NCBI GenBank assembly: GCA_017309115.1 | Contig: JAFLEF010000021.1 | Location: 1 to 64,000 of the forward strand | DNA: 64,000 bases | Source of the DNA: Verrucomicrobiota bacterium | GTDB lineage: Bacteria > Verrucomicrobiota > Verrucomicrobiia > Limisphaerales > UBA9464 | Direction: 5' to 3' | Part shown: positions 3,090 to 45,166 of the stretch, in pieces | Numbering within the stretch: the stretch's first letter is position 1 | How the letters are laid out: each line of letters starts with the position of its first letter | The notes under the pieces: model-generated | Seen by the model: the letters and a program-made list of their open reading frames with translations, nothing else | Databases searched by the model: none | What the model was told of the DNA's origin: nothing | Made by a program: the position numbers and the translations under genes

Positions 3090-5167
3090 ACTTCCTGCAA
3101 CCCGGACTCTGGCTAGCCTTGGCCCCACTGGTGGCGTTGCCGCTGGTGCTGCATCTGCTCAACCGGCAGTTCCCCCGCCTCTTTCGCTTCTCCTCGGTGG
3201 AGTATCTGAAGTTGACCCTGGCGCGTCGGTCCCGCTTGCAACGCTGGCGTCATCTCATCCTCCTGGCGCTTCGCACCCTGCTGTTGTTGGCGTTGTTGCT
3301 CGCGTTTCTCAAGCCCATGCGGCCGCAGTTCGGTTCCGATCCGACAGCCACGGGAGCGCGTCACGTGGTCATTGTGATCGATCACTCCCTGAGCCTGGAA
3401 CATCGCGGCGAAGGCGGGACGGCGCGGGAACGGGCGGTGCAGGAGGCGGGACGTCTGGTGGATTCCTTGGCGGCGGAGGATGGCGTCAACGTGGTGCTTT
3501 TGGAGCAGACTCCGAGTTCGGCTTTTCCCGAATTCACCCGTCAACATGGCGAAGCCAAACAGTGGCTGGAACGATTGCCTCCCGGTCGCGCTCGGGCCGA
3601 TCTGGTGCCGACCACCGCTCTGGTGGGGCGACTGTTGGAGGCCGCTCCGTCGCGTCCGGAGGTGTACTTCATTTCGGATTTCCAGCGGAAGAACTGGTCG
3701 GCAGCGGATTTCACCTCACTGCCGGCGGGTACCCGGGTGTTCTTTGTCGATGTGGCCGCCCGCCAGCGATCCAATCGTGCCATTCTGGCGGCCCGTCCGC
3801 TGGTGAACACCGTGCTGGCGGGCGATACGGTTCCGCTCGAAGTCACCATCGGCAATTTCGGCGACGAACCGTTTTCTGGTCGGGTGATGGTGACGGTGGA
3901 TCGGCAGCTGACCTTGGAAGGCGAGGCCGAAGTGAGTCCCTGGTCTGAGGGCAAGTTGATCGTGCCCCTGCCGGTGGGCGGTCCGGGAGTGCATTTGGTG
4001 GAGGCTCGGCTGCCGGTGGATGCGCTGGAGGCGGACAACACGTTTCGCCTGACGGTCCCGGTCCTGGAGAAGGAGGAAGTGTTGATTGTGACCGACGGTC
4101 CGTCCGACCCGCGAAGTGCGGTCCATTTCCTCCGGACGGCTCTGAATCCCTATGAAGATCTGCGGGGCTCTTTGCTGCCACGCGTGGTGCCTTCGGCGGA
4201 CCTGACGGCCAGCCGACTGGCTGGAGTGCGGAAGTTGATTCTCACCCAGCTCCCTCAGCTGACGTCGGAACAAGCCAAGGTGCTGGCCGGCGCGCTGTTT
4301 CAGGGAGCCGGAGTCATTTACTTTCTCGATGGCGCGGCCGATGCGGGCAATTTGGTTGAACTGGAGAAGGCCATGGCGTCCGGGTCGCTGCCGTTGAAAC
4401 TGGCTCAGCGGCATTCCGCCACCAATCTCACTTCGGGCCTGCAACAGATTGCCCGGGGCGATTTCAAGTCGCCGTACCTGAATCTATTTCGCGGCGCGTC
4501 GCGGGCCGATCTGGGGTTGCTGGAGTTTTATGATTACTGGCAGGCCAGTGCGACCGGGCAGGAGGGCGTGTTGCTGGTGTATGGCGACGAATCGCCGGCC
4601 TTGGCGGTTGCGGGACATGGCCTAGGTACCTTGCTCCTGCTGAATTTCTCCGCCGGCGAATTGTCGAGCAACCTCGCCCGGCAACGACTCTTCCCCGCCT
4701 GGGTGCAGGAATTGGTCAAGTCCGTGAGTTCCGACGAACCCCAGCCGAACAGCGTGACGTGGGGCGACGCCGTTAACACTGAGGTCTGGAAGCAGGATCT
4801 GGATCAGGCGGGTTTGGTCGATCCGGCGGGACGACCGGTCAGCGTGCGTCGCGACGCCAAGGGAGATCGGGTTGGCGTGAGTTTCGTGCCGGATCAATTC
4901 GGTTTCTATTCCCTCGGCCAACCACGCCCGCGGCTGGCCTTTGCCGTGAATGCCAGTGCCGAGGAATCAGATCTGCGGTCCGTGGATCGCGAGCTGCTGC
5001 CGACCACCACCGGCGGAGATACCGTGGGCCAGTTCGTGGAGGGCCGAACCGAATTTGACGAACTCGTCGCGGGACGTCCGATCTTCCACTGGTTCGTGCT
5101 CGCCGCGATTGGGATGCTCGTCATCGAAGGCGGAGTGCAATGGCTGCTACCCGGGAGGAAGGCATGA
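3086..5167 (+). CDS. BatA-like membrane protein with VWA domain
   Basis: A 693-residue membrane protein. The N-terminus has the BatA-type double hydrophobic hairpin: segment 5-25, the motif LHLLNRQFPRLFRFSSVEYL, then segment 56-78. A VWA region follows (VVIVIDHSLS, DxSxS at 99-103), then a long region with beta-rich, CARDB-like character (NTVLAGDTVPLEVTIGN). A C-terminal transmembrane segment lies at about 668-690. Known relatives sit in Bat aerotolerance-type operons. The architecture suggests a large domain outside the membrane anchored at both ends. It overlaps its neighbours by 4 bases on each side. Partner proteins are presumably the DUF58 and second VWA protein of the operon. Confidence 0.88.
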   Translation: MNFLQPGLWLALAPLVALPLVLHLLNRQFPRLFRFSSVEYLKLTLARRSRLQRWRHLILLALRTLLLLALLLAFLKPMRPQFGSDPTATGARHVVIVIDHSLSLEHRGEGGTARERAVQEAGRLVDSLAAEDGVNVVLLEQTPSSAFPEFTRQHGEAKQWLERLPPGRARADLVPTTALVGRLLEAAPSRPEVYFISDFQRKNWSAADFTSLPAGTRVFFVDVAARQRSNRAILAARPLVNTVLAGDTVPLEVTIGNFGDEPFSGRVMVTVDRQLTLEGEAEVSPWSEGKLIVPLPVGGPGVHLVEARLPVDALEADNTFRLTVPVLEKEEVLIVTDGPSDPRSAVHFLRTALNPYEDLRGSLLPRVVPSADLTASRLAGVRKLILTQLPQLTSEQAKVLAGALFQGAGVIYFLDGAADAGNLVELEKAMASGSLPLKLAQRHSATNLTSGLQQIARGDFKSPYLNLFRGASRADLGLLEFYDYWQASATGQEGVLLVYGDESPALAVAGHGLGTLLLLNFSAGELSSNLARQRLFPAWVQELVKSVSSDEPQPNSVTWGDAVNTEVWKQDLDQAGLVDPAGRPVSVRRDAKGDRVGVSFVPDQFGFYSLGQPRPRLAFAVNASAEESDLRSVDRELLPTTTGGDTVGQFVEGRTEFDELVAGRPIFHWFVLAAIGMLVIEGGVQWLLPGRKA

Positions 5168-7377
5168 ACTTCTGGGTGTCCGAAAGCGGTCTGGTCTTGG
5201 ATCCGGTGATTCCGCCGCTGTTGGTGCTGTTCCTGGGCCTGGGCCTTCTGGGGCTGACTGTGCTGCTGCTGCGGCGTCAGGGTGACGCTTTGAGTCGAAC
5301 TCAGCGGCTGACCCTCGCCGCGCTTCGTGTGGCCGGGGTGGCGGGAGTGCTGATCCTCTTGTTGCAGCCGTCGCGCCGCGAAGTGATTCATCCGCCGGCG
5401 GTGGATCGTCTGGTGCTGTTGGGCGTGGATACGTCCCGCAGCATGAAGCAGACGGATGCCGACCGGGCCAGTCGGTTGGATGCGGCCAAGCGGATCCTGG
5501 CCGATTCGGGAGTGGTGAACGGGGAAGGGCGGGTGGCGGATGCCCGGACGCGCCTGTTCCAGTTCAGTGAAGCCACCACCAATGTGACGGGTTCCGTTTT
5601 CGACCTGACGCCTCAGGGACCCACCACCCGGATCCATCAGACGGTCACCGAAATGTTGGCCTCGGTGGGGGCCACGGAGACGGCGTCAGCGCTGATTTTG
5701 CTGACCGACGGGCACGACTTCGAATTGGTCAGTCCGGTTCGAACCGCCGCCGCGGCCCGTACCCGGCAGACACCGATCTATGCGCTTCCGCTGGGACGCC
5801 AGGGTCGGGTTCGGGATGTGGCCGTGCGCATCCTGAGTTTTCAGCCGTACACCTACGTTAAGCAGCGGGCGCGCATCAACGCGTCCCTGCGGGTGGTGGG
5901 ATGTGACTTCGAGGACTTACAGGTGCAGTTGTTGCGACAGGGCGTTCCGGTGCAGAGCCGGGTGGTCAATGCCGACGAATCCCCGGAGCTGACGGTGGAG
6001 TTTGAGGTGACCGAACCGGAGACGGGTCAGTTCGAATACGAGGTTCGAGTGACCCCGCTGGAGGGTGAAGTGGATTCGGCCAATAACGCGGCGCTCACCT
6101 ACTTGAACGTCATTGACCAACAATTGCAGGTACTCGTGCTGGAGGGTTCGCCGTATTGGGACACCACGTTCCTGCAACGTTCCCTGATGCGGAATGACAA
6201 GTTCGAAGTGGATTCCCTGGCCAAGTACGCCAACCGGAAGGTTCGACCCATTCGCAAGCGCGTTGAGACCAACGGCCTGCCGGAACTTCAGCTGCCCAAG
6301 ACGAGTGCAGAGTTTGCCCAATACGACGTGATCGTGCTGGGACGGGGCTTGGAGACGATGCTCGATGCCGAGTCCCTTCAGGCGCTGGAGTCGGCGGTTC
6401 GGGATCGGGGTGCGGCGGTGATCTTTGCGCGCGGTCCGGCCTTTGCGGGTCCGTTGTCGACCAACGAACTGGAACCGGTGCTGTGGAGTTCCGAAAAGCG
6501 GGAGAAGGTGCGGCTGCAGATTGCGGGAGCCGCCGCAGCGACCGGACCGTTCCGGGCGCTCACGGGCGAATCCGGGGGCGTGGAATCCCTGCCGGAACTC
6601 ATCGCCGGTCGGACCCCGGGTGAGGCCAAACCTCTGACCGCCACCCTGGCAACGGCCTCCCTGGAGGGACAAGACTCGCCGGTGCCCGGAATGGTTCATC
6701 GGCGGTTCGGGGCGGGCCAGGTGGTGAGCGTGGGCGTCGAAGGTCTGTGGCGCTGGGGCTTCAACGCCAAGGTGGAGGGCCCCAACACCGCCTTCGACCG
6801 CTTCTGGGATCAGCTGCTGCTCTGGCTGCTGGCCGGACGTGATTTCCTGCCCACCAAGCAGTATTCCCTCCGTCCCAGTGCCGCCAATGTGCCCAAGGGC
6901 GAGAAGGTCTATTTCCGATTCGGCATGCGTCAGCCCGATCCGGCGGTGACCCAGATTCCCATGCGGGTGTATCAGGACGCCACGGAAGTGGGCCGGGTGA
7001 CGCTGACGTCCACCGGGACGGCGGGTCGACTTTCCGCCGAGTTTCTGCCCACCCGCACCGGACGCCATCGGGCGGTGGCCCAGTTGCCCGACGGCACCAG
7101 CCAGGAGATTCGCTTCATGGTGTTCAGTGAGAACCTGGAGGAAACCGAGGTCGCGACCGACACCGGTCTGTTGCGGCGGTTGTGTGAGGCGAGCGGCGGG
7201 CGCTTGCTGACCCCGGCGGAACTTCCGAACTTGCTGAAGCAACTCCGGGAGAATCTTCCGGAAGCCGCCCCCAAGACAAAGCTGACGAGCGTCTGGGATC
7301 GTGCTTGGGTCTTCTACGTCATTGGAGCCTTGTTGGGCTCGGAATGGTTTTTGCGCCGGCGCTGGGGACTATCATGA
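5164..7377 (+). CDS. VWA / glutamine-amidotransferase-like membrane protein
   Basis: A 737-residue protein with two N-terminal membrane segments (about 15-36 and 52-68), a VWA domain with MIDAS DTSRS (89-93), and a central region resembling a class I glutamine amidotransferase-like fold (LQVLVLEGSPYWD and YDVIVLGRG). One C-terminal membrane helix lies near the end (VFYVIGALLGSEWFL). The class I amidotransferase nucleophile cysteine is not evident, so catalysis is doubtful. The ATG at 5164 is chosen because GGGAGGAA lies at 5153-5160 and it makes the same ATGA overlap as the other junctions; an alternative in-frame start is at 5140. Relatives accompany BatA-like proteins in PVC operons. Confidence 0.87.
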   Translation: MNFWVSESGLVLDPVIPPLLVLFLGLGLLGLTVLLLRRQGDALSRTQRLTLAALRVAGVAGVLILLLQPSRREVIHPPAVDRLVLLGVDTSRSMKQTDADRASRLDAAKRILADSGVVNGEGRVADARTRLFQFSEATTNVTGSVFDLTPQGPTTRIHQTVTEMLASVGATETASALILLTDGHDFELVSPVRTAAAARTRQTPIYALPLGRQGRVRDVAVRILSFQPYTYVKQRARINASLRVVGCDFEDLQVQLLRQGVPVQSRVVNADESPELTVEFEVTEPETGQFEYEVRVTPLEGEVDSANNAALTYLNVIDQQLQVLVLEGSPYWDTTFLQRSLMRNDKFEVDSLAKYANRKVRPIRKRVETNGLPELQLPKTSAEFAQYDVIVLGRGLETMLDAESLQALESAVRDRGAAVIFARGPAFAGPLSTNELEPVLWSSEKREKVRLQIAGAAAATGPFRALTGESGGVESLPELIAGRTPGEAKPLTATLATASLEGQDSPVPGMVHRRFGAGQVVSVGVEGLWRWGFNAKVEGPNTAFDRFWDQLLLWLLAGRDFLPTKQYSLRPSAANVPKGEKVYFRFGMRQPDPAVTQIPMRVYQDATEVGRVTLTSTGTAGRLSAEFLPTRTGRHRAVAQLPDGTSQEIRFMVFSENLEETEVATDTGLLRRLCEASGGRLLTPAELPNLLKQLRENLPEAAPKTKLTSVWDRAWVFYVIGALLGSEWFLRRRWGLS

Positions 7378-33168: not shown

Positions 33169-36100
33169 TCAACGGGCCGGGGACTTCAGGTAGCGGATGA
33201 GGTCGGCGAGGTCGGAGGGTTGGAGGCCGGCTTCGAGGCCTTCGGGCATGAGGGAGGTGTTGGCGCTGGTGAGGGTGGTGAGCTCGGGACGGAGCAGGGT
33301 GCGGCTGCGTCCGTCGGCTTGGCGGAACACCAGACTGTTGCCCGTCTCGGCCGTGATGAGTCCGTAGAGTTCCTCGCCGTTGGCCAGGGTTCCCGTGTAC
33401 GCGGTGAAGCCCGGCTCAATCGTGGCGTTCGGGTCCAGGATGGAAACCAACAGGCGTTCCGGCGCGTGGTCGACGACGGATTGCAGATTCGGCCCCAGGT
33501 CGGTGCCCACGTCGCCCAGCCGATGACACGAAGCGCAGAGCCTCCCAAACAGCGCGGCGCCCTTGGTGGAATCGCCGGGAAGAGTCAGCGCCGGGCGGAA
33601 GGCGGCCACGACCTCGGTGCGCGTTCCCGGAACGTCGGCATTTAGGATCGCGGCGGCTTCGCGAACCCGGGCGGAGCTGTGGCGCAGGAGACGATTGCGG
33701 TGCGCAGCGTCGAGCGTGTTGGGCGTGATCGGACCGGTCTTCAGGCGTTGGGCGAGTTCCCAGGCCCAAGGCTCGCGGCTGAGGCACTGGTCCAAGGCCA
33801 GTTGGCGCAGGGAGGGACTCAGGTACGGCCAGGCTTGTTCCAAGAGCGCGGGAACACGGGCGTCCCCGGTTTGGCCCAGCAAGCGCAGGGCGGTTTGCTG
33901 GACGTCGGACGCGTTTCGCGGGTTCAGCCACCCGACCAACTGAGGAACCACCTCGGCGGAACGTTCGGGCAGGCGGGCGAGCACTCCGGCGGCGGCGAGT
34001 CGGTCCGGCAACGGGTCGGCTTCGTTGGCCACCGTCTTTTGGGCGAAGGCTTCCAGGGTCTTGGAGCGGCCCAGCACCTGACTCAGGGCGTCGTCCTCAG
34101 CGGTCCATTGGGCGAGGGTTTGCTGACGGCGGGACAGCAAATCCAGCAGACGGCTGAAGGCGTGCAGTTGCGCGGCGGAGAAGCGGCCGTCGGAATCGGT
34201 CAGAACGGGTTGCAGGAGACGGGCGGCGGCGGCGCGTTGGGGTTGGCCGAGGGTGAGTTCGAGCAGAGGCGCGGACCAGGTGGTAAGGGCCGGTTCGCCC
34301 GCCTGAACCACGGCGTCCACCAAGGCTGGGGCGTGGGGAACTGCTGAGCTCAGGAGGGCGGCGGTCAAATAGGGATCTGCGGGTTGGGCCAGCGCCAGAC
34401 GCCCGAGAGCGATGCCCGCTTCCGGGCTTTTCCATTCGCCCAGGGTGCAGGCCAGTTGCAGCCGAACTTTCAAATCCGGATCAGTCACCAAGGCGACGGT
34501 GGCTCGGACCACCTCCGGACGTTCCTGTCGTTCAGCCAGGCGCACGGACCAAGCGCGAACTCCGGGATGGGCATCGGCCAACCCCAGGAGCAGTTCCCGG
34601 TCGGTGAGGGCGTCGAGTCCGTCGAGGACAGCGAGGGCGTGCAGGCGGGCTAGGGGTGTCGGCGGTTGGGCGACCAGATTGCGGAGGAGCGGCACGGCGG
34701 CTGAGTCCTGACGCCAGAGCAGGATCATCTGGGCCTGATCGCGCAGCCAGCCGTTGGGCGAACCCAGGGTGGCGACCAGGTCGGCGAGCGGCAAACGGGC
34801 GGGCGGCGTCCAGCGGCGCGGCGGGCGATCCTGGGCAGACACCCGATAGATCCGGCCCCGTTCCTCGCCGAGTCGGTAATGGGGTAGCAAATCCGCCTGA
34901 CCTTCCGGGGGCAGCCATTCCGGGTGTTCGATCATGTACCGGTACATGTCCACCACCCAGAGCGCGCCATCGGGTCCGGCGCGGGTCATCACTGGGCGGC
35001 ACCAGCGATCCTCGCTCGCGAAGAAGTCGGGCGCGTTCCCGGGTTCGGCGCGGCGGGCGGCGAAGCTCACGCCGTCGTCGGTCATCTGGAAGTGTTGAAC
35101 GAGATTGTGAAACGGTTCGCAGGTGAAGGCGTGGGTTTCGGGCGTGGCGCCGAAGAGCAGGTCATCGCGGTAGATCATCGCGGCGCAGGCGGACGTGAAG
35201 TGACCGGCTTCGTTGAAGCTGTGGAAGCGCTTCTCCGGGGCGCTCACGGCATACACCGGCGGATTGCGACCGCCCATCAGCTGACGCACCGGATCAGGCG
35301 CGGCGACATACGGATTGCGGCGCAGATACGGATCGGCCAGCACGTAGTGCCACAGCGGCCAGGAGTTCTGGACGCCGAACCAGTGTCCCCAGTTGTCCGG
35401 ATTCCGGCCGAACTGGGACGGGCCGCTTTGCGGATCCAGTTCGCCGGTGTCGGGTCGAAAGCGGAAGTCGCGGCTGCCGATGGCGTACTCCTTCCCGGCG
35501 CGATGGGATTTGATTTTGGTGGCCGCGCCGTAGCCCCCGTGGTGGGAGCCGCTGGCGCAATACACCCAGTTGTCCAGGCCCCAGCGCAGACCATTCACGC
35601 GGAGTTGCTGATTGCCTTCGAGGAACCCCGAGAACAGGACTTCCCGGACATCGGCGCGACCATCGCCGGTGGTGTCGCGAAGGAACAAAATCTCGGGCGC
35701 GGCGGTTACCAGCACGCCGTCCCGCCAACTCAGAATGCCGGTGGGATACCGCAGTCCCTCGGCAAAGACGGTGGAACGATCGTAGCGACCATCGCCGTCG
35801 GAGTCTTCCAAGAGTCGGATGCGTCCGCCGGGTTGGCCGCGTCCGTCGAGTCCCAACGGATAGTCGATCATCTCCACCACCCAGAGCCTTCCCTGGGCAT
35901 CCCAATCCAGCGCGACGGGCGACTGCACGATCGGTTCGGCGACGGCGAGATCCACGGTGAATCCAGCGGGCACATGAATGCGGCGCAGCGAGTCCTCCGG
36001 CGAGAGCGGCGTTGTGGCGGGTGGGCGGGGCGCGGCGGCTTGAGCCCGATTCGGCAATTCGCTGCGGCGAACGTGGTCGGCCACTTCGGTGGCGGTCAGC

Positions 36101-38244
36101 ACGCGATCGTAAACGGCGAGTTCATCCAGCCGACCTTCGAACGGCGCGAAGCGATCATTGCGGCCGCCGAAGAACACGGTTTGGGTTCCGGCGGGCCAAG
36201 TGAGATCGGCTTCCCCACTGATCTCGGGCGTGGGCTGTCCGTTGAGATAAACCGTGACCCGGCGCTCGTCGCGAATCAGCACGACATGATTCCAAGTGAG
36301 CCAGGGAATTTCGGTCCGACCAACGAGCAGGGTGTTTCGTTCGTTGCCGTTGAAAAAGAACAGGCGACCGGGGAGATCGGCCCGATACGTGCCGCCCAAG
36401 CCCAGATGATCGCCGGCCGCTTGGGGATCGCCGTCGGCGCCCCGGGAGAACAGATATCCGGTCACCGGTCTGAGCTGCGGGTTCAATCCGTTCCAGAACC
36501 AGAACTCAACCGAGTAGGTCCGGCCCAGGGCAGGCAGAGCGGAAACGGTGCGGCCACCGGCGTAGTGCGCGGAACGATTGATGACGTCGCGGGTGAAGGC
36601 GTTGGGGACGTCGGGAGCGGGCGGCTGGAATCCGACGGTCCGGCTGGCGCCCGGCAGGAACAGCGCCACGCCGGGTTCGTGCTGGGCGTCCCGCTGATTC
36701 CCAGAGGCATCTTGGACCTGCGGGAAGACGGGATCCTCAAGGCGCCAATAGGCCAAAGGACGCGACGTCAGCACGGCTTCGGGATACGCTCCCACCGGCG
36801 TGGGGAAGGGGCGGCGAGGTTGTCCGGAAATTTCCTCCAGAAGGCTGAGCAACGTGTCGACGATCTTGGGCTCTGCCCCGACTTCGAGTCCGGCGGTGCG
36901 AGCGGGCCAGGTGGTGTAGCCGCCGAGCACGTGTTGTTCGGGCGGCGGGATGTAGCCTTCGGCGCCGTTGGCGAGTTCGATGTTGAAGGTGGTGGGAAAC
37001 GGACTCTGGGCTTTGAGCTTCAGTCCGGTCAGTGCGTACACTTCATTCGGCAGGGCGGTGATGCCCAGATCGCCGATGCGCAGCGCCTGGAGTTTCAGTT
37101 CGGTTCGGGGTCGTTCGTGCAGGTAGATCGCTTCCAGGGCGTAGATTTCCGGAAGCGTGGCGGGGAGGCGTCCGGCGACGGTCGATGCCACCTTGCGCGC
37201 CCAAGCCAGGCGCGATGGATCGGGCGTGCGGTAGTTGAGTTCCAGTTTGCGTTCCGCGATGCCGAGCGGGACGTCGGAGCGGAACTGCAAACGCTGCCAG
37301 ACCTTCGCGACGGATTCGGCCATCTCTCGGGCGTAGGTGTCGTAGCCGATGTCCCGGGCCGGGGCGCTGTAGTCCATCCACATCAGGTCGCCACTGGTGC
37401 CCTGCGACATGATGGCGACAAAGGGACTCTGCGCGGAGGCGTTGGGGGCGAGTTGAGTCGCCAGGTACTTGGCGAAGCGACCGTAGTAGTCTGAGGACAG
37501 CAGCGGGGAGCCGTAGTAGTGCTGCGAGTAGTTGGCGAGGATGGCGAGGGGTTGTCCGTCGAGCGTCTGCACGCCCAGAACGGACAGCCCGGGATCTACG
37601 GGACCGGAGGGGCCGACGGCGTCCGGGCTTTCGTGCCCGGGATGCATGTGGGCCTTCACCGTGGGTTCGCCAAAAGGGTCGGTGATGAGTTTGTCGGGCC
37701 GGCGAATCCAGCGGCGGTTGAAGGTGTGGGTCCAATCGTCCACGGAGCCCCAGCCGACGCGGGCGGGAACGGTTCGTTGAGCGGCGCCGATGATGGCTTC
37801 CGCAATCCAGGGTTCGAGGAACGCCGCGTAATTGGTGTCCATTCGCGATCCCAAGCAACCCATGGCGGACGGGGCGGAGTGCGTGTGGGTCGCGGAGACA
37901 AGCAGATGCTCGGTCGGAATTCCGGTGGCGCGACTGGCCTGTTCCTTGGCGCGATCGATGAGGTCTCGGGCGATCATGCAGGTGTCCACCACGGCCAGGA
38001 CAATTCGCTGATTCCCATTCTCGAGCGCCAAGGCGCGAACGGTCAGCGGATCCACCGTGTTGGTGGCGGTTCGCTCGGTGAACATGGCGTTTACCAGGAC
38101 CGGATACTGGGTCGGCGTGATGTCCACGACGTGGACCCCAGCGCGAAGTCCGGAGGTCTGAGCGAGTAGTGGGGCGGCGGCGGGAACGACGCAGATCAGC
38201 CAGAGTCCGATCCAGCGGAGCATGAGGGGAAACGGGAGCAGCAT
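33169..38244 (-). CDS. Giant exported ceramidase-LamG-propeller-HEAT-cytochrome fusion
   Basis: A 1691-residue protein. Signal peptide (1-28). Residues about 30-450 resemble the neutral/alkaline ceramidase N-terminal domain (SATHTHSAPSAMG, then QHYYGSPLLSSDYYG). LamG module about 465-710 (LAYWRLEDPVFPQVQDASGN). PVC-type propeller about 755-1140 (WDAQGRLWVVEMIDYPLG). HEAT-like repeats about 1150-1500. C-terminal PVC haem-binding domain with CASCH (in LCASCHRLGDVGTDLGPNL), ending in a DLIRYLKS tail. PVC propeller plus haem modules are common as one protein, but fusion to a ceramidase-like hydrolase is unusual. ATG 38244 is chosen because AAGGAG-like sequence lies 10 bases before it and it starts the signal peptide. 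Confidence 0.88.
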   Translation of the reverse strand: MLLPFPLMLRWIGLWLICVVPAAAPLLAQTSGLRAGVHVVDITPTQYPVLVNAMFTERTATNTVDPLTVRALALENGNQRIVLAVVDTCMIARDLIDRAKEQASRATGIPTEHLLVSATHTHSAPSAMGCLGSRMDTNYAAFLEPWIAEAIIGAAQRTVPARVGWGSVDDWTHTFNRRWIRRPDKLITDPFGEPTVKAHMHPGHESPDAVGPSGPVDPGLSVLGVQTLDGQPLAILANYSQHYYGSPLLSSDYYGRFAKYLATQLAPNASAQSPFVAIMSQGTSGDLMWMDYSAPARDIGYDTYAREMAESVAKVWQRLQFRSDVPLGIAERKLELNYRTPDPSRLAWARKVASTVAGRLPATLPEIYALEAIYLHERPRTELKLQALRIGDLGITALPNEVYALTGLKLKAQSPFPTTFNIELANGAEGYIPPPEQHVLGGYTTWPARTAGLEVGAEPKIVDTLLSLLEEISGQPRRPFPTPVGAYPEAVLTSRPLAYWRLEDPVFPQVQDASGNQRDAQHEPGVALFLPGASRTVGFQPPAPDVPNAFTRDVINRSAHYAGGRTVSALPALGRTYSVEFWFWNGLNPQLRPVTGYLFSRGADGDPQAAGDHLGLGGTYRADLPGRLFFFNGNERNTLLVGRTEIPWLTWNHVVLIRDERRVTVYLNGQPTPEISGEADLTWPAGTQTVFFGGRNDRFAPFEGRLDELAVYDRVLTATEVADHVRRSELPNRAQAAAPRPPATTPLSPEDSLRRIHVPAGFTVDLAVAEPIVQSPVALDWDAQGRLWVVEMIDYPLGLDGRGQPGGRIRLLEDSDGDGRYDRSTVFAEGLRYPTGILSWRDGVLVTAAPEILFLRDTTGDGRADVREVLFSGFLEGNQQLRVNGLRWGLDNWVYCASGSHHGGYGAATKIKSHRAGKEYAIGSRDFRFRPDTGELDPQSGPSQFGRNPDNWGHWFGVQNSWPLWHYVLADPYLRRNPYVAAPDPVRQLMGGRNPPVYAVSAPEKRFHSFNEAGHFTSACAAMIYRDDLLFGATPETHAFTCEPFHNLVQHFQMTDDGVSFAARRAEPGNAPDFFASEDRWCRPVMTRAGPDGALWVVDMYRYMIEHPEWLPPEGQADLLPHYRLGEERGRIYRVSAQDRPPRRWTPPARLPLADLVATLGSPNGWLRDQAQMILLWRQDSAAVPLLRNLVAQPPTPLARLHALAVLDGLDALTDRELLLGLADAHPGVRAWSVRLAERQERPEVVRATVALVTDPDLKVRLQLACTLGEWKSPEAGIALGRLALAQPADPYLTAALLSSAVPHAPALVDAVVQAGEPALTTWSAPLLELTLGQPQRAAAARLLQPVLTDSDGRFSAAQLHAFSRLLDLLSRRQQTLAQWTAEDDALSQVLGRSKTLEAFAQKTVANEADPLPDRLAAAGVLARLPERSAEVVPQLVGWLNPRNASDVQQTALRLLGQTGDARVPALLEQAWPYLSPSLRQLALDQCLSREPWAWELAQRLKTGPITPNTLDAAHRNRLLRHSSARVREAAAILNADVPGTRTEVVAAFRPALTLPGDSTKGAALFGRLCASCHRLGDVGTDLGPNLQSVVDHAPERLLVSILDPNATIEPGFTAYTGTLANGEELYGLITAETGNSLVFRQADGRSRTLLRPELTTLTSANTSLMPEGLEAGLQPSDLADLIRYLKSPAR

Positions 38245-38771
38245 GAAGGTGGCACTCCTTTCCGCTGCCTGGACTTGGGAGGCAAGCGGCAAAGTGGGGA
38301 AAGGGGACAGCTGAAAGCTGAGAGGGTAGGGCGAGGTTACACCGAGCCGTTCGTGTCTCGGCGAAAGACGCGTCAGGAGTCCACGCCGGAACGGCTCCGC
38401 GGAGCGTCGCCCCACCGGAGGGCGGGTGGGGGTAGGGCGAGGTTACACCGAGCCGTTCGTGTCTCGGCGAAAAACGTGTCAGGAGTCCACGCTGGAACGG
38501 CTCCGCGGAGCGTCGCCCCACCGGGGGCGGGTGGGGGTAGGGCGAGGTTACACCGAGCCGTTCGTGTCTCGGCGAATGACGCGTCAGGAGTCCACGCCGG
38601 AACGGCTCCGCGGAGCGTCGCCCCACCGGAGGACGGGTGGGGGATGGAGACACTCAATGCGTCAGCAGCCGGGACGAAAAGCGGTAGCTACGCAGGCTTC
38701 GCTACCGCACTCCAAAGGGCTTGGCGGGACATTTACCTGGGATTTACAAATTCGGGGGAAATCCGCACACG
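38245..38771. other. Intergenic island with tandem module C
   Basis: No gene. It contains GCTGAAA/GCTGAGA words (38310-38326), three tandem module C copies (38327-38643), module B (38655-38712), and then a short unique stretch before the leader of the EF-hand gene. ORFs crossing it are repeat translations. Confidence 0.65.
38327..38643. repeat. Three tandem copies of module C, about 105 bases each
   Basis: Copies start at 38327, 38433 and 38538, each beginning TAGGGCGAGGTTACACCGAG and ending in the intact right arm CGGCTCCGCGGAGCGTCGCC plus a CCACCGGRGGGCGGGTGGGGG-like tail. The three differ at only a few positions (for example AAAGACGCG, AAAAACGTG, ATGACGCG). In all three the left arm has changed the same way, so the array arose by local amplification of one already-diverged element. 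Confidence 0.85.
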
Positions 38772-38861
38772 GGCTTAATGGGACGGGCGTCTCTTGTGGG
38801 TGAAGCGCGACGACTTCGGTCGCCGCCAACGAAAACAAAAAACAAAAAACACAATTCTCCC
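38772..38861 (+). promoter_or_regulatory. Candidate structured leader RNA 1
   Basis: Leader of the first EF-hand gene. CGGGCGTCTCTTG and GGTGAAGCGCGACG are shared exactly with the leader at 39874-39968. It ends in a hairpin: CGAC (38811-38814), a TTCG tetraloop and GTCG (38819-38822), extended by GCG/CGC (38807-38809/38824-38826) across one mismatch, then an A-rich stretch up to the start. It could be a cis-regulatory RNA or merely a duplicated promoter/UTR. Confidence 0.55.
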
Positions 38862-39176
38862 ATGAAACGCATCATTGCTTCCCTGGTCGTTACGGTCCTG
38901 ACCGTCAGCAGCCTTAACCTCGTCGCCCAAGACTCCCAACGTCCGGCCGGACGTCGGGGCGGACCGCCGGTCGTCAGCGCTCTGGATTCCAACAAGGACG
39001 GCACTTTGGATGCCACCGAAATTGCCAATGCGTCGGCCGCTTTGTTGACGCTCGACAAGAACGGCGACGGCCAATTGACCTCGGACGAACTGATGCCGGC
39101 TCGGCCGGAAGGTCAGGGCGGCCCCGGCGGACCTGGCGGCAAACGCGGTGGACGTCCGGCGCCCCCGACGGAGTAA
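38862..39176 (+). CDS. Small exported EF-hand protein, copy 1
   Basis: A 104-residue protein. Signal peptide KRIIASLVVTVLTVSSLNLV with cleavage after residue 22, then an Arg/Gly-rich spacer. Two adjacent EF-hand loops, DSNKDGTLDATE and DKNGDGQLTSDE, keep all usual calcium-ligand positions. A Gly-rich tail follows (GQGGPGGPGGKRGGRPAP). Predicted to be a secreted calcium-binding protein. The CotH protein at 13585 uses the same type of loops and Gly-rich linkers. A paralogue with a shared leader lies at 39969-40277. The start ATG at 38862 is fixed by the signal peptide. Confidence 0.88.
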   Translation: MKRIIASLVVTVLTVSSLNLVAQDSQRPAGRRGGPPVVSALDSNKDGTLDATEIANASAALLTLDKNGDGQLTSDELMPARPEGQGGPGGPGGKRGGRPAPPTE

Positions 39177-39873: not shown

Positions 39874-39968
39874 GGCTTAACAGAGCGGGCGTCTCTTGAT
39901 GGTGAAGCGCGACGGTGACGTTCACCGGCGCCACCGAAACGAAACAAAACATCAAAAGAATCCCAGTT
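39874..39968 (+). promoter_or_regulatory. Candidate structured leader RNA 2
   Basis: It shares CGGGCGTCTCTTG and GGTGAAGCGCGACG with the leader at 38772. The hairpin here is different in sequence but alike in design: CGGTGA (39913-39918), CGT loop, TCACCG (39922-39927), extended by GCG/CGC (39909-39911/39929-39931) across one mismatched position. An A-rich stretch leads to the ATG. Stem sequences differ yet pairing is kept, which supports a real structure. Confidence 0.55.
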
Positions 39969-40277
39969 ATGAAAACTCTTCGAACCTCTCTTTGCGTCGC
40001 CCTGCTCAGCTTGATTCCGGTGACGCTCACCGCCCAGGATTCGTCCACGGGACGGCCGCCGGGTCGTCCGGCTCCTCCGATCATGGCCGCTCTGGACGCC
40101 AATCAGGACGGCGTGGTGGATGGCACTGAGATCGCCAATGCCGCCAATGCGCTCCTGACGCTGGATCAGAATGGCGACGTACAATTGACCCAGGACGAGC
40201 TACGCCCGGCGGGTGGTCACGGTGGACCTGGAAAGGGTGGTAAACGTGGGCCTCGTCCGGCTCCTGACGCCGAGTGA
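39969..40277 (+). CDS. Small exported EF-hand protein, copy 2
   Basis: A 102-residue paralogue of the protein at 38862. Signal peptide KTLRTSLCVALLSLIPVTLT, Pro/Arg-rich spacer, EF-hand loop 1 DANQDGVVDGTE intact and loop 2 DQNGDVQLTQDE with Val in place of the conserved Gly at position 6. Gly-rich, basic tail (GKGGKRGPRPAPDAE). The pair share the IANAxxALLTLDxNGD segment. Probably calcium-binding and secreted. It has its own leader and terminator, so the duplication covered an entire transcription unit. The type I secretion-like operon begins about 330 bases downstream. Confidence 0.87.
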   Translation: MKTLRTSLCVALLSLIPVTLTAQDSSTGRPPGRPAPPIMAALDANQDGVVDGTEIANAANALLTLDQNGDVQLTQDELRPAGGHGGPGKGGKRGPRPAPDAE

Positions 40278-40343: not shown

Positions 40344-40609
40344 CTCAGTAAAGGCGTCGTCTGGATTGGCTTGTGCGAAGGGCGGGCAGGGTCCGGTCGA
40401 CCGATATCAAGTCGCTGGCGGAAGCCTTGGAAGCCTTGGAGTGCTGGTCAAAGGACCCTAATGAGGAGAATTATCCTGGGCGGGTGATTTTGGGAGCTGG
40501 CTTTGATTTGCATTTTGGGCGATCCGGGCTAACGAAAAGCGGTTATGTCAACGAGTCACCATCCAATCCAGGTTCGATCACCCTTTGGGGCGATGACGGC
40601 ATATTGCGC
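40344..40609. other. Gap before the ABC operon
   Basis: 266 bases. The ABC frame is open from 40373, but its first 79 codons translate to sequence without membrane or family character. The region more likely holds the promoter; TTGATTTGCATTTTGGGCG near 40504 is AT-richer than its surroundings. No repeat modules seen. Confidence 0.45.
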
Positions 40610-42340
40610 ATGACTGCTGACACGGGCTCTTCAGGCCATTCCGGGGGCGGAGGACATCCGGAACCACATCACCGCTTTTTCGAGCTGCTCCGACCCGAGC
40701 GAGCGGATGTCGTGGTGATTATTCTTTTTTCGATCATTAGCGGCGTCTTGCTGCTGGCCACGCCGTTGGCGGTAGACGCGGTGGTGAATAACATCGCCTT
40801 CGGAGGGCAGGAACGAGTCTACGTACAGGCGTTGGTGGTACTCTCGATCGCGTTGTTTGCGTTTCTGGCCCTGTTGGCGGCTCTCCGCGCTGCCCAACAC
40901 TACGTGATGGAGATTATCCAGCGCCGAATCTTCCTCCGATTTACTGCGGATTTGGCCTATCGGCTTCCCCGGACGGAAACGGTCGCTTTGGAACGGACGT
41001 TGGGACCGGAGTTGGTGAATCGTTTTTTTGAAGTGATTACCGTGCAGAAGGGGAGTTCGCACCTTTTGCTGGAGGGCATTAACGTTATTTTGGCGGCGTT
41101 TATCGGTCTTCTGGTTCTCGGGTTTTACCATCCGTTCCTGTTGGCGTTTGATTTGGTTCTGATCGTCGCCTTGGCGTTTGTGATCTTTGTGATGGGACGG
41201 GGCGCAGTCCGGACCAGCATTCGGGAATCGTACGCCAAGCACGCTGTGGCGGGTTGGTTGGAGCAAATCGTCCTTTTTCCCCTCCTGTTCAAAAACCAGG
41301 GGGCGGCGGAATTGGCACTCCGTCGCGCCGACCTCCTCGGTCGCGAGTATCTTGACGCGCGCCGTGCGCATTTCCGGGTGTTGCTGCCGCAAATTTGCGG
41401 CTTGCTGACGCTGCAAGCACTAGCGAGTGCCTCCTTGCTGACCATTGGCGGCGCATTGGTATTGAGGGGGGAGCTAACCCTCGGGCAATTGGTCGCCAGC
41501 GAACTGATTGTCGGGGCGACTTTGGCGTCGGTCGCGAAGTTCGGGAAGCATTTGGAGAGTTGGTACGATGCCATGGCGGCGGTCGACAAACTGGGCTATC
41601 TGGCTGATTTACCCATCGAACGGGAACACGGTGAGCTGCCCACCAATAAGTCCGGTCCGGTTGAGGTGGAACTCCGAGATTTATCCTTTGGCTACTATCC
41701 CAACCGTCCGTTGATCCAGGGTCTTTCGCTGAAGTTTCGTCCGGGGGGGCGCGTCGCGGTTGTCGCTGCCGCGGGGTCGGGGGCCAGCACCTTGCTGGAC
41801 ATCCTATACGGCTTGCGGTTGCCACAGCAGGGCATGGTGTTGATCGATGGACTTGATGTCCGCCACTGGGATCTGAACGCCCTCCGTCAGCAGGTTTCCC
41901 TGGTACGCGGGGTCGACATCGTCGATGGGACGATCGCGGAGAATGTTCGATTGGGGCGGGAGGACGTCAGTTTCGACGATGTTCGTCGCGCTTTGGAGTG
42001 TGTTGGACTGATCGAGGCGGTGTCCAAGTTTCCGGACGGTTTGGACACCCGGCTTCGGCCTGGCGGCAGGCCTCTTTCCAGCACTCAGCGAATCCGGTTG
42101 GTGTTGGCGCGGGCGATCATTGGGAAGCCTCGGCTGTTGTTGTTGGACGAGCTTTTGGAGGGGCTCGATCCGCAGACGGTTTTGGAATTGGAGCACTACC
42201 TATTCGAACCTTCGAATCCATGGACCCTGGTGTTGGTCACCCGCGACCCTGAACTGGTCAAACACTGCGACGAAGTCGTCACGTTGACCGCTCTCCAATC
42301 CAGTCAAACCCCGGGCAACAACTCCTCCGCCGAGTTATGA
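40610..42340 (+). CDS. ABC transporter (exporter type) with degenerate ATPase domain
   Basis: A 576-residue half-transporter: polar N-terminus, six-helix exporter-type membrane domain (about 30-320; FSIISGVLLLATPLAVDAVV), and an ATPase domain (about 345-560). The ATPase is altered at most catalytic sites: Walker A reads AAAGSGAST (Ala codon 41783-41785 where Lys is expected), the Q-loop Gln is replaced (SLVRGVDIVDGT), the signature is LSSTQ rather than LSGGQ, and the H-loop His is Arg (VLVTRDPEL). Walker B with the adjacent Glu is kept (LLLLDELLEGLD). It overlaps the HlyD gene by 4 bases. Organisation is that of a type I secretion system, but ATP hydrolysis by this protein is doubtful. ATG 40610 is preferred. 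Confidence 0.85.
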   Translation: MTADTGSSGHSGGGGHPEPHHRFFELLRPERADVVVIILFSIISGVLLLATPLAVDAVVNNIAFGGQERVYVQALVVLSIALFAFLALLAALRAAQHYVMEIIQRRIFLRFTADLAYRLPRTETVALERTLGPELVNRFFEVITVQKGSSHLLLEGINVILAAFIGLLVLGFYHPFLLAFDLVLIVALAFVIFVMGRGAVRTSIRESYAKHAVAGWLEQIVLFPLLFKNQGAAELALRRADLLGREYLDARRAHFRVLLPQICGLLTLQALASASLLTIGGALVLRGELTLGQLVASELIVGATLASVAKFGKHLESWYDAMAAVDKLGYLADLPIEREHGELPTNKSGPVEVELRDLSFGYYPNRPLIQGLSLKFRPGGRVAVVAAAGSGASTLLDILYGLRLPQQGMVLIDGLDVRHWDLNALRQQVSLVRGVDIVDGTIAENVRLGREDVSFDDVRRALECVGLIEAVSKFPDGLDTRLRPGGRPLSSTQRIRLVLARAIIGKPRLLLLDELLEGLDPQTVLELEHYLFEPSNPWTLVLVTRDPELVKHCDEVVTLTALQSSQTPGNNSSAEL

Positions 42341-43683
42341 ATCCTGCCACGACTACCTCGCACCACTCGGGACACACGGTGGCCTCGGCAATGCCGATGC
42401 TTGATCAGCGTGCCCATTTGCCGGTGCTGGAGATGACCAAATGCCCGAACCGCTTGCGCTGGTTCAGTCGCCTGTTGTTTGGGGCTTTCCTGGGTCTGAT
42501 ACTGGGTCTGGTCTTCCTGCCTTGGCAGCAGTTCGTGCAGGGCGCCGGCAGTGTCGTCGCATACGATCCTTTGGACCGCAGCATCACCGTCGAAGCACCG
42601 CTTCCCGGTCGGGTCCGGCGGGCGTACGTCGTGGAAGGGCAAGCAGTGAAGAAAGGCGAAGTGCTTTTTGAGCTGGCCGATAACGATCCAAATTTGCTGG
42701 CCAATCTGCAGATCCAGCGCGAGGCCGCCAATTCGCGGCGGGATGCGGCCAACCAGCGGGTTGGTTCCTTGGCGGCCCAGTTGACCGAATTGGAACGAGC
42801 ACTTCCACTTGCCGTTGAGGCGGCACAAACGCGACTGGACGCGGCCAAATTTGCTTCGACTACCGCCCAATTGCACTACGAGCGAATCAAATCGTTGTTC
42901 GAAAACGAGCGCGGATTGGCGTCGCAGCGTGATTTCGAACTGGCGACGCTGGAGCGGGATCGCGCCTCCGCCGAGTTGGTTCGAGCTGAAGCCGAGTTGA
43001 AGCGGGCGTCGGTTGATATGCGAACCATGCTCAATGGCGTGCTCGCGCAGCGCGATTCGGCCAAAGCCGACGTGGCCGCTGCTGAGCAGTCTTTGACCAC
43101 GATGGATATTCAGATCAGCCAGAATCAGATGCAGCGCGTGACAGCTCCGCGAGATGGAATCGTTTTCCGAGTTCAGGCAACTGAAGGAACCTATCTGCGT
43201 GCTGGTTCGCCTCTTTGCACGGTGATACCCGAGACGGACAATCGTATGGTGGAACTTCTGCTCGATGGCAACGACATGCCTTTGGTGCAGGCGAGGGAAA
43301 TGGATGAGCAGGGGAAGGTGACCCAGCCGGGCAGCCCGGTCCGTTTACAGTTTGAGGGATGGCCTGCCATTCAGTTCATCGGATGGCCGAGCGCGGCGAT
43401 CGGCACGTTTGGGGGCGAAGTGGTGTTGGTCGATCCGACCGATAACGGCAAAGGCAAATTTCGGGTTCTCGTGGCGGAGAAGCCGGATGTGATTGGAAGG
43501 GGCACGGGTGAACCGCGCGTGATCAACTGGCCCAGCTCGCGCTGGTTGCGCCAGGGCGTGCGAGCCAATGGCTGGGTGCTGCTCCAGCGGGTGCCGTTGT
43601 GGTATGAAGTTTGGCGTCAGTTGAACGGCTTCCCGCCTGCTCTGACCGACGAAGCGCTCGGCGAAACGGGAGCCAAAAAGTGA
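42337..43683 (+). CDS. HlyD-type periplasmic adaptor
   Basis: A 448-residue membrane-fusion protein. One membrane segment (about 43-63; LLFGAFLGLILGLVFLPW), then a lipoyl-like half-motif (SITVEAPLPGRVRRAYVVEG), a long coiled-coil hairpin (about 125-260, rich in A/E/R/Q), the return lipoyl half (RVTAPRDGIVFRVQATEG), and a beta-barrel with DNRMVELLLDGNDMPLV. It would bridge the ABC protein encoded upstream and the TolC-like protein downstream. Start overlaps the ABC stop (ATGA at 42337). Its own sequence shows no sign of decay, in contrast with the ATPase. Confidence 0.92.
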   Translation: MNPATTTSHHSGHTVASAMPMLDQRAHLPVLEMTKCPNRLRWFSRLLFGAFLGLILGLVFLPWQQFVQGAGSVVAYDPLDRSITVEAPLPGRVRRAYVVEGQAVKKGEVLFELADNDPNLLANLQIQREAANSRRDAANQRVGSLAAQLTELERALPLAVEAAQTRLDAAKFASTTAQLHYERIKSLFENERGLASQRDFELATLERDRASAELVRAEAELKRASVDMRTMLNGVLAQRDSAKADVAAAEQSLTTMDIQISQNQMQRVTAPRDGIVFRVQATEGTYLRAGSPLCTVIPETDNRMVELLLDGNDMPLVQAREMDEQGKVTQPGSPVRLQFEGWPAIQFIGWPSAAIGTFGGEVVLVDPTDNGKGKFRVLVAEKPDVIGRGTGEPRVINWPSSRWLRQGVRANGWVLLQRVPLWYEVWRQLNGFPPALTDEALGETGAKK

Positions 43684-43690
43684 GGTGGCT

Positions 43691-45166
43691 ATGATCTGTC
43701 CTCTCCTTAGGTCATTCGGGCGGCATGCTCGCGGATTGTTCCTGACGTACCTGTTGATCGGGTCCCTCCGCGCCGAAACCAACGAGTTTCCTCGCTCGAC
43801 GCTCCAGCTGGGTCAGGTGTTGTCGTCGATCACGAATCAGTATCCACCGCTTCTGGCCGCGCTGATTGAGCGGGACATTGCGGCGGGTCGGTTACGGAGC
43901 GCCGAAGGTACCTTTGACTTCAATGTGTTTGCCCGCCTGTTTGGCACACCGGCAGGCTATTATCAGAGCGGAACCGTAGACACCGGCTTTGAGCAATTCA
44001 CGGGCATCTGGGGCAGCACGGTTTTTGGCGGTTACCGGCTCACGCGCGGCGACGTGTTGCCAGATTACTACAACAATCGGACCGAAGGCGGTGGTGAGAT
44101 TCGCTTTGGGTTGCGCGTCCCCTTGCTCCGGGACGGGGCCATCGACCGCCGCCGCGCGGCAGTGCTCAAGGCGCGGTTGGACAAGGAACTGGCGGATCCC
44201 TTTATTCAACGCCAGCAACTCGACTTCATTCGCGCGGGTACGGTGGCTTATTACAACTGGCAAGCGGCGGGGGAACGTCTGCGGGTGATCGAAGGCTTGT
44301 TCCGCATCGCCAATGAACGCACCAGCGCCCTCACCAATCAGGTGAGCTCCGGCTTGTTGCCGCGCATCGTGCTGACCGACAACCAACGTCTCGTCGTCGC
44401 CCGACAACTGGGGGTGGTGCAGGCTCGGCGGCGCTTTGAAGCAGCTTCCCTGGCCCTTTCGCTGTTCTACCGGACGCCCGATGACGAGCCGGTTGTGGCT
44501 CAGCGCGATCAGTTACCCCCGGAGTTCCCCGAGGTCAGTGGCTCGGTTGAGCCGAAAATCGATATTGCCCTGGAACTGGCGGTTCAGAATCGTCCCGAGA
44601 TCGTTCGTCTCGAACTCGCGTCCAAGAAGCTCGCCGTGGACCGTCGTCTGGCTAAGAACCAATTGCGTCCCAACCTGGATGCCGGTGCTGTGGCAAGTCA
44701 GGACTTCGGGGAGAACATTTATCCCGACAAAGAACCGTTTGAACTTCAGGCCGGCCTGGAGTTTCGCATGCCCCTCCAGCGAAACGAGGCGAAGGGGCGA
44801 TTGGCCGAAATCGAAGGGCAGATCGAACAGTTGTCCAACGAACAGCGAATGGCCCAGGACCGAATTCGCAACGAGACGCGCGATGCCTATTCTGCTTTGA
44901 CGGCCGCGCACGAACAGACCCAACAAGCGAAGCTGAACGTCGAACTCGCCCGGGAACTTCAAGCCGGTGAAGAGGAACGATTCCGCCGCGGGGCCTCGGA
45001 TCTGTTGGCCCTGCAATTGCGGGAGCAGGCCTTGTTCGACGCCCAGATTATGGAGGTGGACGCTTACACCGAGTATTTCCGTGCATTGGCCGATTATCGC
45101 GCGGCCACGGCTGCTGATCTCGCGTCCATCGCTCTCCCGACGGCGATGAACGTGAGTGGACGCTGA
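43691..45166 (+). CDS. TolC-family outer-membrane protein
   Basis: A 491-residue outer-membrane efflux protein. Signal-like N-terminus (LFLTYLLIGSLRA), then two similar halves rich in long amphipathic helices: EGGGEIRFGLRVPLLRDGAI with RTSALTNQVSSGLLPRIVL, and AGLEFRMPLQRNEAKGRLAE with RIRNETRDAYSALTAAHEQT. These are features of TolC-type channels. Third gene of the secretion-like operon, 7 bases after hlyD. GAGG (43682-43685) precedes ATG 43691 by 5 bases, so this start is preferred over GTG 43685. Confidence 0.9.
   Translation: MICPLLRSFGRHARGLFLTYLLIGSLRAETNEFPRSTLQLGQVLSSITNQYPPLLAALIERDIAAGRLRSAEGTFDFNVFARLFGTPAGYYQSGTVDTGFEQFTGIWGSTVFGGYRLTRGDVLPDYYNNRTEGGGEIRFGLRVPLLRDGAIDRRRAAVLKARLDKELADPFIQRQQLDFIRAGTVAYYNWQAAGERLRVIEGLFRIANERTSALTNQVSSGLLPRIVLTDNQRLVVARQLGVVQARRRFEAASLALSLFYRTPDDEPVVAQRDQLPPEFPEVSGSVEPKIDIALELAVQNRPEIVRLELASKKLAVDRRLAKNQLRPNLDAGAVASQDFGENIYPDKEPFELQAGLEFRMPLQRNEAKGRLAEIEGQIEQLSNEQRMAQDRIRNETRDAYSALTAAHEQTQQAKLNVELARELQAGEEERFRRGASDLLALQLREQALFDAQIMEVDAYTEYFRALADYRAATAADLASIALPTAMNVSGR

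Follow-up and report, generated by a model that had tools for sequence, protein, structure and literature searches.

ABC exporters are defined by ATP-driven transport. For the type I secretion system of HlyA, published descriptions place three HlyB dimers on six HlyD subunits in the HlyB/HlyD complex (PMC11026475, PMC9751043), report that the substitution H662A in the HlyB ATPase domain leaves <0.1% activity (PMC9751043), and describe HlyA secretion as drawing on ATP hydrolysis together with the proton motive force (PMC3034196). The locus analyzed here, made up of components of the same types, lies in a window of 64,000 nucleotides, by which we mean the whole stretch of DNA that was analyzed (positions 1 to 64,000 of the forward strand of contig JAFLEF010000021.1, GenBank assembly GCA_017309115.1, from a Verrucomicrobiota bacterium). 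An exporter-type ABC gene whose product has a degenerate ATPase domain, here called pseudo-ABC, is followed at this locus by genes for an HlyD-type membrane fusion protein and a TolC-type outer membrane channel. The ABC protein is very probably a member of an old, conserved pseudo-ATPase family. That the members of this family are exporters that build a conduit of the HlyB/HlyD/TolC type and do not power it by an ATPase of their own is a reading for which we consider the balance to be even.

Motifs and gene set at the window locus

The pseudo-ABC gene (40610..42340, plus strand) encodes 576 residues from an ATG at 40610; the frame itself opens at 40373 with GTG, and the ATG is preferred as the start because some relatives align from residues 1–3. 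The protein has the layout of an exporter, a helical membrane domain (residues ~20–335) preceding the degenerate ATPase domain (residues ~340–560). On the plus strand, Walker A reads AAAGSGAST (41765..41791), with Ala replacing both the Lys and the first Gly, and the Q-loop reads VSLVRGV (41894..41914), where, against ordinary exporters, the position of the Gln aligns to Gly434, beside Arg433, a one-residue gap nearby deciding which residue replaces the Gln. The degenerate signature reads LSSTQ (42074..42088), Walker B, LLLLDE (42134..42151), is kept, and in the H-loop, LVTRDP (42233..42250), the His is replaced by Arg. The window copy retains one of the five ATPase hallmarks, Walker B, and thus lacks the intact ATPase motifs of type I systems. 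The losses of the Lys, the Gln, the standard signature and the His had been called in an earlier sequence-only reading of this DNA and were all found in the sequence, as was the Walker B with its Glu.

The gene for the HlyD-type protein (42337..43683, plus strand; 448 residues) starts within the ABC stop codon, the overlap reading ATGA, and the gene for the TolC-type channel (OEP; 43685..45166, plus strand; 493 residues) follows directly. Both are over their Pfam cut-offs (HlyD_3, 55 bits; OEP, 90 bits), in agreement with the earlier statement that the partner genes are in good order. In the ABC protein Pfam identified ABC_tran at 66.5 bits (cut-off 25) and ABC_membrane at 25.5 bits, under the cut-off of 28; ABC_membrane is over the cut-off in seven of eight long relatives. 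The top NCBIfam match was TIGR03375 (type I secretion), with 197 bits.

An AlphaFold2 model of the window protein built with 18 family sequences had a mean pLDDT of 77 and a pTM of 0.55. The ATPase domain is predicted to be folded, with a pLDDT of 74–89 in ten-residue blocks from residue 351 to 560. The top Foldseek match of the model was HlyB/HlyD (8dck), with an E-value of 1.8e-27 and a TM-score of ~0.5, and TmrAB and PCAT1 were close behind.

Conservation across the family

The motif loss seen in the window copy recurs in its relatives. Motifs were counted in 49 aligned rows, excluding one relative without an ATPase domain (L083, described below), two with frame changes (L023, L051), the split G068 copy, and L025, L026 and L028, which are the same genes as L005, L006 and L009; two row pairs are identical, and two rows end before Walker B. 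The Walker A Lys is found in 3 of these rows, a full Walker A in 1, the Q-loop Gln in 2, LSGGQ/E in none, Walker B DE in 32 and the H-loop His in 3, versus 9, 9, 9, 7, 9 and 9, respectively, in nine ordinary exporters from the same phylum. No family row has more than two of the five hallmarks intact (none in 14 rows, one in 32, two in 3), whereas the ordinary exporters have five (7 sequences) or four (2 sequences). Because the losses recur family-wide while the ordinary exporters of the phylum keep four or five of the five motifs, the motif loss goes beyond chance.

The identity of the replacements varies. Where the Walker A Lys is lost (46 of 49 rows), it is replaced by Ala, Gly, Ser, Thr, Cys, Val or Gln according to lineage. 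The column still holds Lys in three deep branches (L082, L084, L085), two of which lack the glycine-rich loop, and this loop is lost in the three deep members L081, L082 and L084. Of the 47 rows long enough to cover Walker B, 15 do not have an intact DE. The sequence-only reading had suggested looking for homologues that share the same four substitutions beside HlyD and TolC; loss of the motifs is indeed family-wide, but the letters differ by lineage, and the three deep members with Lys, three rows with His and two rows with Gln depart from the pattern. Homologues with intact motifs, which would have spoken for degeneration of this copy alone, did not appear among the 49 rows. The only relative with a full Walker A (GGPGSGKS) is L085 (L085:7522-9192); it is without the signature, the catalytic Glu, the Gln and the His and may still bind nucleotide.

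Among 31 close pairs of relatives, which are not independent (mostly from genus g3, some rows identical; L017 excluded), the median dN/dS was 0.074, with 0.070 for the membrane domain and 0.080 for the ATPase domain; a dN/dS near 1, the other result that would have told against the earlier reading, was not seen. Since dN/dS is saturated for distant pairs, the window copy was judged by pN/pS only, which was 0.23 against L005 and, against the nearest relative, for which synonymous sites are saturated, 0.20 for the membrane domain and 0.27 for the ATPase domain. Distant GC-rich pairs gave ratios of 0.4–0.7 because dS is underestimated in them; one such value, 0.67 for the ATPase domain of L008 and L015, is among the 31 pairs.

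The two domains are constrained differently. The ratio of ATPase-domain to membrane-domain identity in the family was 0.70–0.87 for pairs at 30–80% identity and 0.94 above that. In the control, one exporter family of 16 sequences from the same genomes, the ratio was 1.91 (85 pairs at 40–50%), 1.63 (30 pairs at 50–60%), 1.38 (3 pairs at 60–70%) and 1.18 (one pair at 70–80%). As far as sequence comparison goes, constraint is thereby shown to have shifted from the ATPase domain to the membrane domain, opposite to the control exporter. Fourteen polar or charged residues of the membrane domain are invariant in 48 rows; for most of them the alignment has no outgroup sequence to compare. Position 298 is Glu in 46 of 48 rows and Gln, Tyr or Arg in the nine ordinary exporters.

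In one relative, L083 (from genome G153), the ABC gene encodes a membrane domain only (L083:3452-4582, minus strand). Its frame ends ~12 residues past the last membrane-domain match, the stop codon overlaps the HlyD frame, and TolC comes next. No remnant of an ATPase domain of the type found in its sister L081 was detected in 10 kb around L083, and Pfam identified no ABC_tran in the protein, only ABC_membrane under its cut-off. L081 is 64% identical over the membrane domain; its ATPase domain is still present but heavily eroded, scoring 28.9 bits for ABC_tran and lacking Walker A. L083 retains Glu298 together with the full set of 14 invariant polar residues. Between the two loci, with synonymous sites near-saturated, pN/pS was 0.33 in the membrane domain and 0.25 in HlyD.

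The order ABC–HlyD–TolC is found in 33 of 35 loci, so that the membrane fusion protein and TolC-like channel of type I systems accompany the ABC gene; of the two exceptions, L081 ends before the position of TolC and L085 shows no TolC at an E-value of 1e-6. This count excludes L029, L041 and L049, all three of which break off inside the operon, the broken loci L045 and L051, and L042, which is complete. Pairwise distances of the ABC, HlyD and TolC proteins correlate at 0.81–0.87 over 32 loci, uncorrected for shared descent. Two copies are broken. In G001 (L051) all three operon genes carry frame changes, two upstream neighbors are intact and dN/dS is still low, which reflects either a recent loss or an assembly error. 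In G033 (L045) the ABC gene has two stops and HlyD–TolC is shortened, consistent with loss under way or an assembly error.

The family was identified in 42 of 321 genomes of the window's order, 10 of the 42 lying outside the window's bacterial family. Within that bacterial family, 32 of 51 genomes carry the operon, broken and split copies counted, and the identities listed leave a gap between family members (at least 48%) and ordinary exporters (at most 35%). When 59 relatives were searched, 21 genomes, counting that of the window, matched at an E-value no worse than 1e-40. Across an evenly drawn sample of the phylum (387 genomes), the 17 matches comprise the window, seven family members at 39–54% identity, six of them in the window's class and one (G555) in another, and nine ordinary exporters at 25–30% identity; in the class of G555, the family was identified in 1 of 197 genomes, G555 alone. 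By record titles and kinship the group lies in Verrucomicrobiota, apart from L024; the public genome collection was scanned with patterns of close relatives only, which does not delimit the extent of the family outside the phylum. L024 (VGTK01000049.1) is a whole operon in a bin titled Deltaproteobacteria, with an ABC protein 69% identical; nested among Verrucomicrobiota copies, it represents either gene transfer or wrong binning. In a tree of 44 family and 9 outgroup rows the family forms a clade with support of 100/100 on a long stem, and the deep family branches are long, with an uncertain order of branching.

The long members of the family bear on its origin. In 16 of the 49 rows, 173–337 extra in-frame codons lie ahead of the part shared with the window copy, which has no C39-like domain. 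A model of this N-terminal front part from ten of the 16 long rows had a pLDDT of 90.5 and matched the C39-like domain 3zua, HlyB and the PCAT1 peptidase domain at E-values of 2e-4 to 3e-4; the fourth match was the protease AvrPphB, so the wider fold was matched too. The Pfam C39 profile gave a weak match in one of ten front pieces (E-value 0.032), and no C39 chain was among the matches listed by a sequence-based search of the front part. Type I exporters bearing a C39 domain are the most likely ancestors of the family.

Neighbor clustering of 24 loci (L081–L097 excluded) identified no conserved fourth gene, with the limit that frame calling was crude, the neighbor frames being longest open frames, many of them antisense, so that a small gene could escape. 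A gene upstream of the operon in genus g3, which we take to be RsuA-like, is a neighbor at the genus level, and presumed prepilin-like proteins occur near the operon in several genera at variable positions. In the window, two related small proteins with EF-hand motifs are encoded next to each other upstream of the ABC gene (38721-39176 and 39915-40277); the second is under the Pfam cut-off, and both have an apparent signal peptide by eye. A 106-base tandem repeat of three copies with 95% matches (38324-38643) lies at the 5′ end of a long minus-strand frame (33169-38415).

Partners, motor and rival explanations

The three genes would form a type I secretion-like conduit across the envelope, composed of the inner-membrane HlyB-type protein, HlyD and TolC. 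We consider it likely that the pseudo-ABC protein assembles with HlyD and TolC, and it may do so in homo-oligomeric form, with the HlyD and TolC of its own operon, the need for another ABC partner being somewhat less probable than its absence. The remaining folded, non-hydrolyzing domain would serve as a docking, recognition or gating part, and cargo would be moved by the proton motive force or passively with gating; given the rest, the case for the proton motive force over passive movement stands at about even. That movement through the conduit is independent of its own ATP hydrolysis is the likeliest reading in view of the three followed exporters, none of which tracks the operon (see below), of the H662A loss in HlyB and of the role of the proton motive force in HlyA secretion. 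In its fullest form the proposal describes a Verrucomicrobiota type I-like machine that would carry cargo across both membranes without an ATPase of its own, couple to the proton motive force via charged membrane residues including Glu298, and reuse the ATPase domain as a recognition part or gate, discarded in L083; in this detail it is tentative and, taken as a whole, unlikely.

Several observations weigh against a conduit independent of its own ATPase. The family retains Walker B DE in 32 of 49 rows and the Ser/Thr of the signature in 44 of the 46 counted for it, which fits a role in a shared ATP site, and L085 has its full Walker A. Within the ATPase domain, nucleotide-contact columns are retained in 7 of 14 cases versus 20 of 45 for other outgroup-conserved columns, and with retention so similar the whole domain has drifted, the loss not being selectively catalytic. 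Free-standing ABC ATPase genes with Walker A, seemingly of different kinds by eye, lie near 4 of 41 operons (L033, L046, L048, L085); in L033, which is the closest relative of the window copy, the ATPase gene (4311-5480, oriented) has intact motifs and stands directly after TolC. The operon is dispensable, as indicated by the two broken copies and by the 19 of 51 genomes of the window's bacterial family without a family match. The PDB list obtained by sequence profile puts P-glycoprotein chains above HlyB. As L083 stems from a single metagenome bin (900 contigs, 7% contamination), it may be a misassembly, if less likely because the overlap with HlyD is clean, and L081 and L083 are too divergent for a good dN/dS. 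A proton site at Glu298 is a guess from its conservation.

The main rival explanation, which we regard as possible but doubtful, is a mixed complex, in which an intact exporter or a free ATPase from another locus partners the pseudo-ABC protein; the two would form a heterodimer, or the pseudo-ABC protein would take non-catalytic positions in a three-dimer assembly on six HlyD. Degenerate halves are common among heterodimers, and in yeast Pdr5 the Walker A Lys is Cys in one half (PMC7756269); moreover, with three HlyB dimers in each HlyB/HlyD complex, not every dimer need be catalytic. The retained signature Ser/Thr and, in nearly all rows, the Walker B Asp fit such an arrangement, as does the intact free ATPase directly after TolC in L033. 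Candidate partners exist, as the window genome has at least eight other exporter-type ABC genes: eight other TIGR03375 matches at an E-value of 1e-70 or better lie on other contigs, and there may be weaker exporters besides. A standard Walker A is present in seven of the eight, the eighth locus showed no matching frame, and no relatives of the window HlyD or TolC were identified in 8–13 kb around these loci. Matches to TIGR03375 that cover the N-terminal part of the profile were present in 1 of 17 operon-bearing genomes and in 4 of 11 genomes that lack the operon.

Against a mixed complex, no exporter-type ABC gene was identified in the examined flanks of 41 loci, so the paired canonical subunit of heterodimers was not encountered there, and free ATPases occur near 4 of the 41 only; at the window locus, none lies within 10.6 kb upstream and 12.7 kb downstream. 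Co-occurrence was followed for three of the at least eight other exporters in the window genome, leaving at least five, and none of the three tracks the operon: C17 (E-value 1e-90) is found in 11 of 28 operon-bearing genomes and 5 of 6 that lack the operon, C56 (at least 71% identity) in 4 of 32 and 0 of 19, and C57 (at least 57% identity) in 13 of 32 and 11 of 19, respectively. L083, having no ATPase domain, also speaks against such pairing.

Two further candidates were rejected. A second SecA as motor finds no place in the window genome, which has one SecA_DEAD match only (two are present in 8 of 20 operon-bearing genomes), and RTX cargo is not tied to the operon, repeats occurring in 8 of 17 genomes with it and 2 of 11 without.

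A separate locus, L111 (G004:C204), encodes a long ABC protein with intact ATPase motifs and an adjoining weak relative of HlyD, in a genome that also has a pseudo-ABC operon. By eye, its front part looks cyclic-nucleotide-binding-like, and the protein seems to carry a C39 domain with its Cys.

SUR-type ABC proteins are non-transporting regulators, and the pseudo-ABC protein might in that manner be a regulator or sensor that opens or closes an HlyD–TolC channel. Many of the invariant residues lie around predicted coupling helices rather than in hydrophobic segments, and no cargo is obvious, the window genome yielding no RTX repeat with PF00353. A channel or kinase partner was not recognized beside the operon, however, and HlyD and TolC by themselves require an inner-membrane component; we consider this explanation improbable. 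Slightly less probable again is an ATPase domain that still binds and slowly hydrolyzes ATP by an altered site. The 32 rows with Walker B DE, the second and third Gly and the Ser/Thr of the loop kept in most rows, the one member with GPGSGKS and the predicted fold of the domain would suit it, but Lys, Gln, both signature Gly and His are missing in the window copy and most relatives, the replacements vary by lineage, three deep members have no glycine-rich loop and L083 has no domain at all. Ordinary gene decay or a local pseudogene, to which the broken copies in G001 and G033 and the 19 genomes without a match might point, is highly improbable, being contradicted by the open frame of the window copy, a dN/dS of ~0.07–0.08 in close pairs and losses common to families, orders and a second class. 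The earlier claim that the gene is not decaying thus holds; as for the interpretation built on it, a trans-envelope assembly kept with a non-hydrolyzing ATPase withstands the motif and dN/dS results. The three forms that it offered, another power source, a heterodimer and a gated channel, stand as candidates, and the substitutions are not identical across the family.

A clade that keeps the channel and envelope partners, has lost the catalytic site and is still under selection raises the question of whether an HlyB fold can function when it does not itself hydrolyze ATP, and would test how far type I secretion depends on the ATPase versus the proton motive force. Alternatively, the clade may turn out to supply pseudo-subunits to a complex of several dimers such as HlyB/HlyD.

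Comparison with known systems

Among the open-access literature matches listed, there was no type I secretion operon whose sole ABC protein is degenerate clade-wide. Secondary SecA_DEAD loci of Planctomycetes, Verrucomicrobia and others, which contain HlyD, Peptidase_M50 and OEP, resemble the locus described here in combining HlyD/TolC-type parts with the lack of a normal ABC ATPase; another ATPase is proposed there as the motor, and the authors could not identify an ABC homologue in those loci (PMC4452313). They differ in that only one SecA_DEAD match, and no second SecA_DEAD protein, was encountered in the window genome. Heterodimeric exporters with a degenerate site, and Pdr5, share with the pseudo-ABC family that one subunit or half has lost ATPase residues in a conserved manner, and in the cases described a canonical site stays in their complex (PMC7756269), whereas here no second exporter-type ABC gene was encountered beside the operon and all motifs but Walker B are lost in the window copy.

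The likeness is to the type I systems of the HlyB–HlyD–TolC (LssB) kind, with three components in one operon, 8dck as the first Foldseek match, TIGR03375 as the best NCBIfam match and a C39-like HlyB fold in the modeled front part of the long relatives. The differences are the clade-wide loss of the ATPase motifs, the absence of the domain in L083, a TIGR03375 score of 197 bits against a cut-off of 693, and, for the window, a copy without the C39-like domain in a genome without RTX repeats by PF00353. On the evidence of its sequences, the system is one that has the parts and the probable descent of a type I system and lacks the intact ATPase by which such systems are defined.
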